A stretch of 64,000 bases of DNA from Pseudomonadota bacterium (GTDB taxonomy: Bacteria; Pseudomonadota; Alphaproteobacteria; Rhodobacterales; Rhodobacteraceae), in NCBI GenBank assembly GCA_021845805.1, contig JAJZVD010000002.1, positions 62,001 to 126,000 of the forward strand, written 5' to 3'. A program made the translations under genes and the position numbers. Numbering within the stretch: position 1 is the first letter of the stretch; every line of letters starts with the position of its first letter. Below the pieces are notes generated by a model, which saw only the letters and a list, made by a program, of their open reading frames with translations, was not told where the DNA came from and searched no databases. This document shows, in pieces, positions 41,518 to 44,151 of this stretch.

Positions 41518-42864
41518 ATGTCCGGCCACGATACCCCGATCCCGATGACCGCTTCGCAATCCGGCCCGCTGTCCGGCGTGGCCGAGATTCCGGGCGACAA
41601 GTCGATCAGCCACCGCTCGCTGATCCTGGGCGCGCTGTCGGTCGGCGAGACGAAGATCACCGGGCTGCTGGAGGGCGAGGACGTGCTGGACACCGCCCGC
41701 GCCATGCGGGCCTTCGGGGCCGAGGTGACGCAGCACGGGACCGGGCGCTGGTCGGTGCATGGTGTGGGGGTGGGCGGGTTTTCCGAACCTGCCGACGTGA
41801 TCGATTGCGGCAACTCGGGCACCGGGGTGCGGCTGATCATGGGGGCGATGGCCACCACCGCGATGACCGCGACCTTCACCGGCGACGCCAGCCTGCGCAA
41901 GCGGCCGATGGGGCGGGTGACCGACCCGCTGGCACTGTTCGGCGCGCAGGCATACGGGCGCAAGGGGGGGCGGCTGCCGATGACGGTGGTGGGCGCGGCC
42001 GATCCCCGCCCGGTGCGCTACACCACGCCGGTGCCTTCGGCGCAGGTGAAATCGGCGATCCTTCTGGCCGCGCTGAACGCCCCGGGCGAAACCGTGGTGA
42101 TCGAACGCGAGCCCACGCGCGACCATTCCGAACGGATGCTGCGCGGCTTCGGCGCGCGGCTGTCGGTCGAACGGACGGCCGAGGGCAACCAGATCACCCT
42201 GCTGGGGCGGCCGGAACTGGTCGCGCAGACGGTGGCGGTGCCGCGCGATCCGTCCTCGGCGGCCTTCCCGGTCTGTGCCGCGCTGATCGTGCCGGGGTCC
42301 GACATCACCGTGCCCGGCGTCAGCCAGAACCCGACGCGCAACGGGCTTTACACCACGCTGGTCGAGATGGGCGCCGACATCGCCTTTGAAAACCCCCGCG
42401 AAGAGGGGGGCGAGCCGGTGGCCGATCTGCGCGTGCGCTTCACCGGCGCGCTGAAGGGCATTTCCGTGCCGCCCGAGCGCGCGGCGAGCATGATCGACGA
42501 ATACCCGGTGCTGTCGGTCGTGGCGGCCTGCGCCGAAGGCACCACCGTCATGCGCGGCGTCAAGGAACTGCGGGTGAAGGAAAGCGACCGGATCGACGCG
42601 ATGGCGCGCGGGCTCGAGGCCTGCGGCGTGCGGGTCGAGGAGGACGAGGATACGCTGATCGTCCACGGCCTTGGCGCGGGCGGCGTGCTGGGCGGGGCGA
42701 CCTGCGCCGTGCACCTCGACCACCGCATCGCGATGAGCTTTCTGGTGCTGGGGCTGGCCGCCCGGAAGCCGATCACGGTCGATGACGGCGCGCCCATCGC
42801 GACCAGTTTTCCGATCTTCGAGGGGCTGATGCAGCGCCTGGGCGCCAGCCTGCGCCGGGCCTGA
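41518..42864 (+). CDS. aroA: 3-Phosphoshikimate 1-carboxyvinyltransferase (EPSP synthase)
   Basis: The 448-residue enzyme joins shikimate-3-phosphate and PEP in aromatic amino acid synthesis. Motifs are [16 protein letters not shown] and [17 protein letters not shown] at the N-terminal half, and [15 protein letters not shown] and [15 protein letters not shown] near the end. The internal ATG at 41518 follows GAGGAA by 7 bases and is preferred over 41464. aroA followed by cmk and rpsA is a conserved alphaproteobacterial order; here the minus-strand gene at 42867-43499 interrupts it. Confidence 0.97.
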
Positions 42865-42866
42865 GG

Positions 42867-43499
42867 TCACGCGCCGCTGGTGAACCCGATCCCCTGACGT
42901 GCAAGGCGGGCGCGCAGCGCGGGCCAGCGGCGACGCGCGCCACCAAGAATGGCATCCTCGCGCAGTGTCACGGCGTAGCCCCGGTGACGGGCGGCCAGCG
43001 CGGTGCTGGCTACCGCCGTCGTGGCATCCGCCCCGGCGATTTCCAGCGCGCCGACACCCAGATAATCCAGCAGCGTATCCAGCGTGCCATCCGCGAACCC
43101 GTCCCGGACAGAGGTGTCAAGGATGTGGTCGGCCTCGTCCGCGGGGTGCATCAGCGCCGTGCCCGCGGTTCCGGGCAGGCCACGGCCCCGCAGGAAGCCG
43201 CGCGCCAGCCCGCGCAGCACCGGATCGTGCCAGCCGTGCCGCAGCGCGATCACCGGCCGCCCTGTCACCTGTGCGGCATCGGTCAGCGCGTCGATCCGCG
43301 CCAGCACGGCGTCGCGTTCCTCGGGCGGATAGGGGCCCCGTTGCACCCAGTCGGGCTGCAGATGCACGAGGATCAGCGCGCTGCCCCGGCGGCCGGTGGT
43401 GGGAATGGGGGTGCCCTTGCTGACCCGCAGGACGGGGCGCAGCCGCAGGGCAACGATGCCCGCCATCAGCAGCGCCAGAAGTGTCAGCGCAAGACCCAT
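42867..43499 (-). CDS. Membrane-anchored isochorismatase-fold protein lacking catalytic cysteine
   Basis: The 210-residue protein has one N-terminal membrane segment ([20 protein letters not shown]), then a cysteine-hydrolase/isochorismatase fold recognisable by [23 protein letters not shown] and [28 protein letters not shown]. In active members the first motif has an Asp where His stands here (LVHLQ), and the GxxTDxCVxxTA motif has Cys where Ala stands here (ATTAVASTA). It is therefore probably not a hydrolase of the usual kind. The start at 43499 is chosen because the membrane segment begins there. It is convergent with aroA (2 bases between stops) and divergent from cmk. Confidence 0.75.
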
Positions 43500-43569
43500 C
43501 CGCTTGCCTCTGCCGGTTGACAACAGGACCGGAGTGGAACAAGGCCGGAGCCGGGTCAAGAGGACAAAG

Positions 43570-44151
43570 ATGCAGTTCACAGTCGCCATCGACGGGCCCG
43601 CCGCGGCCGGCAAGGGCACCATCGGCCGCGCCATCGCGGCCCGCTTCGGCTTTGCCCATCTGGATACCGGGGCGCTTTACCGCGCGGTTGGGGCGAAGGG
43701 CGGCGACCCGGTGCTGGCTGCGCAAAGCCTGAGCGCCGCCGATCTGGCGCGGCCTGACCTGCGGACGCTGGCGGCGGGGCAGGCGGCAAGCCGCGTGGCG
43801 GCGATCCCCGAGGTGCGCGCCGCGCTTCTGGACTTTCAGCGCCGCTTCGCGCGGGCCGAAGGCGGCGCCGTGCTGGACGGGCGCGACATCGGCACGGTCA
43901 TCTGCCCCGACGCCGAGGTGAAGATCTACGTCACGGCCAGCCCCGAGGTGCGCGCCCACCGCCGCTGGCTGGAGGTGGGCGGCGATCCGGCGCTGGTGCT
44001 GGCCGAGGTGAAGGAACGCGACGCGCGCGACATGAACCGGACCGACGCGCCGCTGAAACCCGCGGCGGATGCGGTGATCCTCGATACCTCGGCGCTTGGC
44101 ATCGACGCGGCGGTGGCACGGGCCGTGGCGCTGGTCGAAGCCCGGCTGTGA
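43570..44151 (+). CDS. cmk: Cytidylate kinase
   Basis: The 193-residue kinase phosphorylates CMP and dCMP. The P-loop [18 protein letters not shown] and the CMP region [10 protein letters not shown] are clear, and [23 protein letters not shown] is the family signature. It is shorter than E. coli Cmk (about 227) mainly in the region between the P-loop and LDGRDIG. The ATG at 43570 is the family start; the track's 58 extra residues extend into the divergent gene. Confidence 0.95.

Follow-up and report, generated by a model that had tools for sequence, protein, structure and literature searches.

A membrane-anchored isochorismatase-fold protein without the Asp-Lys-Cys triad, encoded between aroA and cmk in a lineage of Rhodobacteraceae

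INTRODUCTION

The PF00857 superfamily, to which the nicotinamidase of P. horikoshii (1ilw/1im5), 3eef and biuret hydrolase belong, has a catalytic triad of Asp, Lys and Cys. The nucleophilic Cys is dispensable in some members: PhzD (D38-K122-G155) and YecD (D26-K112-G145) have the same fold without it, and mutation of D, K or C in a relative cut or abolished activity (PMC5353710). The protein described here is encoded in the window, the whole stretch of 64,000 nucleotides of a Rhodobacteraceae genome that was analyzed. It has the whole domain in common with the enzymes of the superfamily but is devoid of D, K and C and carries an N-terminal membrane helix; PhzD and YecD keep Asp and Lys, whereas the window protein has neither. 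The second system to be considered is the autoregulated operon of the MarR family. The unit found in relatives of the window protein likewise comprises a MarR_2 gene, a promoter palindrome and a translationally coupled downstream gene, but the product of the latter is a membrane-anchored hydrolase, and in the window lineage, both the regulator and the palindrome are absent.

RESULTS

The hydrolase-fold gene lies between aroA and cmk on the opposite strand (Table 1), and its coordinates agree with the gene order given in a preliminary description of the locus. There is no gene at this site in the congeners G001, G003 and G006, in which aroA is directly followed by cmk. A start codon further upstream, which would give a protein of 255 amino acids, was rejected because the reading frame would then overlap cmk and because the N termini of the family agree with a start at position 43499.

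Table 1. Coordinates of the features at the aroA-cmk locus of the window
Feature	Position	Strand	Remark
aroA	41518..42864	+	Convergent with the hydrolase-fold gene; stop codons separated by two bases
Membrane-anchored isochorismatase-fold protein without D-K-C triad	42867..43499	-	210 amino acids
Position of nucleophilic Cys, Ala162 (GCG)	43014..43016	-	Profile alignment
Position of catalytic Lys, Thr129 (ACC)	43113..43115	-	Profile alignment
Position of catalytic Asp, His46 (CAT)	43362..43364	-	Profile alignment
N-terminal membrane anchor, residues 2 to 24	43428..43496	-	Helix in the AlphaFold2 model
Divergent intergenic region, hydrolase-fold gene/cmk	43500..43569	.	70 bp
cmk	43570..44151	+	Divergent from the hydrolase-fold gene

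The protein matched the Pfam family Isochorismatase (PF00857) with 72.2 bits (cutoff, 27) over residues 40 to 201, corresponding to positions 1 to 165 of the 175 positions of the profile. An AlphaFold2 model based on 19 family sequences had a mean pLDDT of 91.7 and started with the helix of residues 2 to 24, which was followed by a hydrolase domain of alternating strands and helices. The retention of the fold, proposed earlier, was thus borne out by both the profile score and the model. When the model was used as the query in Foldseek, many structures of the family were found with a probability of 1.00, and 1ilw was matched with an E value of 1e-11. The closest solved folds included the Pyrococcus nicotinamidase 1ilw and the N-carbamoylsarcosine amidase-related protein 3eef, which were also the top sequence-profile matches (E of about 1e-18). 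There is no Lys or Arg ahead of the N-terminal helix, and the 15 residues after it include four. Therefore, according to the positive-inside rule, the predicted topology is N-out/C-in, which would place the hydrolase-fold domain on the cytoplasmic side. The anchor had been regarded as rare in this family; a helix is indeed predicted, but it is not peculiar to the window protein, since all 19 aligned homologues, the window protein included, begin with a membrane helix that has positive charges after it.

The positions of the triad were located by profile alignment to the solved relatives 3eef and 1ilw and to 18 homologues. All three are changed in the window protein (D46H, K129T and C162A). The replacement of Cys by Ala and that of Asp by His had been recognized correctly, and no misassignment of catalytic positions was found; the replacement of Lys by Thr had been overlooked. 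Since PhzD and YecD are D-K-G (PMC5353710), loss of the Cys alone would not make a pseudoenzyme, and because Lys is lost as well, the case is stronger than originally claimed. Neither the Asp-Lys-Cys triad of an active cysteine hydrolase of the nicotinamidase/CSHase type nor the Asp and Lys kept by active isochorismatases of the PhzD/EntB type (H46 and T129 in the window protein) is present. There are 28 columns that are at least 90% conserved, as defined on the 16 homologues outside the group of the window genome (G000), its sister species (G004) and the congener G002. The window protein deviates at five of them, the three triad positions and two near-invariant residues, a Phe (residue 51) adjoining the Asp motif and a Leu (residue 157) adjoining the Cys motif. 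Thus, change is concentrated at the active site.

We searched 61 near relatives, about 400 members of the family to which the window belongs and 385 members of the class. Of 397 genomes sampled from the family, 15 had a member of the subfamily of anchored homologues, which also extends to at least two further families. Among 19 homologues, 16 have D-K-C, two (G000 and G004) have H-T-A and one (G212) has E-K-A, and the tree of these homologues needs two independent losses, of which the one in G212 is partial. The G004 protein is 88% identical to the window protein (aroA, 99%) and carries the same three substitutions in a separate assembly, which rules out a sequencing artifact or assembly error. 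The G002 orthologue, with 61% identity, occupies the same site between aroA and cmk and has kept D-K-C; the residues lost from the window protein are thus retained by an orthologue at the same locus. The proposal that the protein is a pseudoenzyme therefore holds for G000 and G004, but not in the sense of a conserved trait, because most orthologues, 16 of 19 with G002 among them, keep Cys and Asp and the loss is confined to the two sister species. A pseudoenzyme conserved throughout the family was ruled out by the same count. What is supported by these alignments is a lineage-specific pseudoenzyme of the isochorismatase-like fold with a membrane anchor.

The E-K-A homologue of G212 (L031/L069; L069, 646 to 1266, minus strand) also adjoins aroA and has no marR. 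Since it retains an acid and the Lys, it may be active, and it may act in the manner of the Cys-less isochorismatases.

In 14 of 19 genomes, the hydrolase gene follows a MarR-type regulator. The gene directly upstream codes for a MarR_2 winged-helix protein of about 150 amino acids in 13 of the 16 loci examined, and the same order was found outside the Rhodobacteraceae (G611). The stop codon of marR and the start codon of the hydrolase gene share 4 bases in 9 of 13 Rhodobacteraceae loci. Upstream of marR, 11 of 13 Rhodobacteraceae operons have the palindrome TGACA-N7-TGTCA at about -36, often or usually with a second copy 20 bp downstream, and the upstream copy overlaps TTGACA in most loci. 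Elsewhere in each locus of 10 to 13 kb, there was at most one near-match, and the G312 genome has two exact copies in all, both at marR; several extra copies were present in some of the other genomes. Such an arrangement would be expected of a regulator that represses its own synthesis, and the palindrome is probably an autoregulatory operator. We did not find a description of this marR-hydrolase operon in the open-access literature searched. The triad is intact in all 14 members with marR; of the five without it (G000, G004, G002, G212 and G666), three do not have an intact triad.

Locus by locus, the operon of MarR_2 and anchored D-K-C hydrolase was seen in L057 to L067 and in L074, with palindromes over the marR promoter in L057 to L067. 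A subclade (G369 and G061; L068 and L070) does not have TGACA-N7-TGTCA; instead, TGTCAACTTAGTTGACA lies close to the start of marR in L068, which suggests a changed operator.

An orthologue of marR was not found in the genomes of G000, G002 and G004, with best E values of about 1e-7 to 1e-8 versus 1e-65 for the positive controls; the absences in G212, G004 and G002 are at risk because these assemblies are incomplete (86%, 91% and 93%, respectively). A match in G005 (E, 1e-17) was rejected as a relocated marR since it is another MarR-type gene without such a hydrolase alongside. At the window locus itself, the short distance to cmk leaves no room for a coupled marR, and indeed, there was no marR in the spacer and no TGACA-N7-TGTCA upstream of the gene at up to three mismatches. 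The window protein thus shares the membrane helix with the operon-encoded hydrolases, and its gene has neither the coupled marR nor the upstream palindrome. Because marR is widespread on the tree, and is found even beside aroA in G280 and G302, we infer that it was lost in the window lineage rather than gained elsewhere.

The spacer between the hydrolase-fold gene and cmk is well conserved among G000, G004 and G002, with TTGACA and AGTGGAACAAGG invariant, and probably holds the promoter of cmk and/or a divergent promoter. It retains a TTGTCAA half-site that is indistinguishable from chance. Scans for consensus promoters and terminators at the window locus found nothing.

Since G000 and G004 share the loss of the triad, the differences that separate them arose after it. 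Pairwise codon maximum likelihood on these two sequences, the only triad-less sisters in the comparison, gave an omega of 0.191 (bootstrap, 0.123 to 0.299; 2dlnL of 36.7 versus omega = 1), with the lowest value, 0.091, at residues 39 to 127. Third codon positions held 41 of the 70 nucleotide differences in the alignment. The omega of cmk was 0.10, which is a rough comparison only, as the alignments ran from stop to stop. A neutral gene would not show this excess at third positions together with a low omega; therefore, the gene is not selectively neutral, and pure neutral decay is ruled out for the G000 and G004 branches. The protein branch lengths within the pair were about 3 times those of cmk (1.5 times for the G002 branch), and the stem to the pair had a length of 0.48 versus 0.17 for G002 (aroA, 0.07 versus 0.08). 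Moreover, the differences between G000 and G004 do not avoid the columns conserved in the family (Fisher P, 0.26 to 1.0). Selection was thus maintained after the loss but relaxed relative to the ancestral pattern: the constraint on the protein is real, but it is changed and weaker.

DISCUSSION

The explanation that we favor, with a probability of roughly 0.55, is that the window protein is a deregulated, catalytically dead remnant that has been kept, so far, for a noncatalytic role on the cytoplasmic side of the membrane. The starting unit would have been a self-regulated operon of marR and an anchored D-K-C cysteine hydrolase, located at the aroA-cmk site in some Rhodobacteraceae, and this operon is presumed to be the ancestral state. 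Its MarR probably binds TGACA-N7-TGTCA at the marR promoter and would come off the palindrome in the presence of a small-molecule inducer. The hydrolase, anchored in the inner membrane with its domain toward the cytoplasm, would then degrade this inducer or an amide related to it. The marR gene and the operator would have disappeared from the window lineage, and in the common ancestor of G000 and G004, Asp, Lys and Cys would have been lost together with Phe (51) and Leu (157). Without the triad, the protein is predicted to have no catalytic activity. Since its fold and anchor stay under purifying selection, the most likely reason for its persistence is a noncatalytic function in binding or as a scaffold at the membrane; the regulatory or scaffold role suggested in the preliminary description is possible.

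The main rival is final decay. If the hydrolase became useless after the loss of marR and its operator, the active site may simply have degraded, and the gene would be on its way out. The clean absence of the gene from three congeners (G001, G003 and G006), the loss of the regulator and operator, the accelerated evolution of the protein and the fact that changes hit conserved and variable columns alike are all in line with such an end, and the low omega could then reflect nothing more than a weak or remaining constraint, such as one against misfolding of a membrane protein. However, both G000 and G004 have an intact reading frame, differences are in excess at third codon positions, and omega is well below 1. 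We therefore regard decay as possible but the less probable outcome. Retention of a dead enzyme may also be part of a broader trend, in which two or more lineages that had already lost the MarR autorepressor independently disarmed such hydrolases to noncatalytic, membrane-bound ligand sensors or scaffolds; this generalization is unlikely.

It would be more surprising if the protein were still an enzyme of altered chemistry, with His46 or a neighboring residue taking over. Its predicted fold is intact, PhzD does without the Cys (PMC5353710), and Lys and an acidic residue are still present in the G212 homologue, but in the window protein all three triad positions are changed, along with the near-invariant Phe and Leu by the motifs, and the Cys-less members named in PMC5353710 retain Asp and Lys; we consider this very improbable. 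An ordinary active hydrolase with a misassigned active site or an assembly error can be dismissed on the sequence evidence, since the profile alignments to solved structures and to 18 homologues agree, the second assembly shows the same residues and no support for it was found.

The window protein completes a series at one locus within one genus, which comprises no gene, an active-type enzyme without a regulator and a triad-less protein without a regulator, with the intact and probably autoregulated operon outside the genus as the reference. This makes the locus a modest but tractable case of an enzyme becoming a nonenzyme or fading away, in which it can be asked whether the loss of regulation comes before that of catalysis and whether binding is the reason for which an inactive enzyme is retained. 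The operon of marR and hydrolase, together with its palindrome, forms by itself a small regulatory unit that can be tested. In G302, G217, G423 and G143, TGACA-N7-TGTCA occurs eight to ten times per genome, compared to 0 to 5 times for a reversed-pattern control, and thus, this MarR or a relative of it may have further targets.
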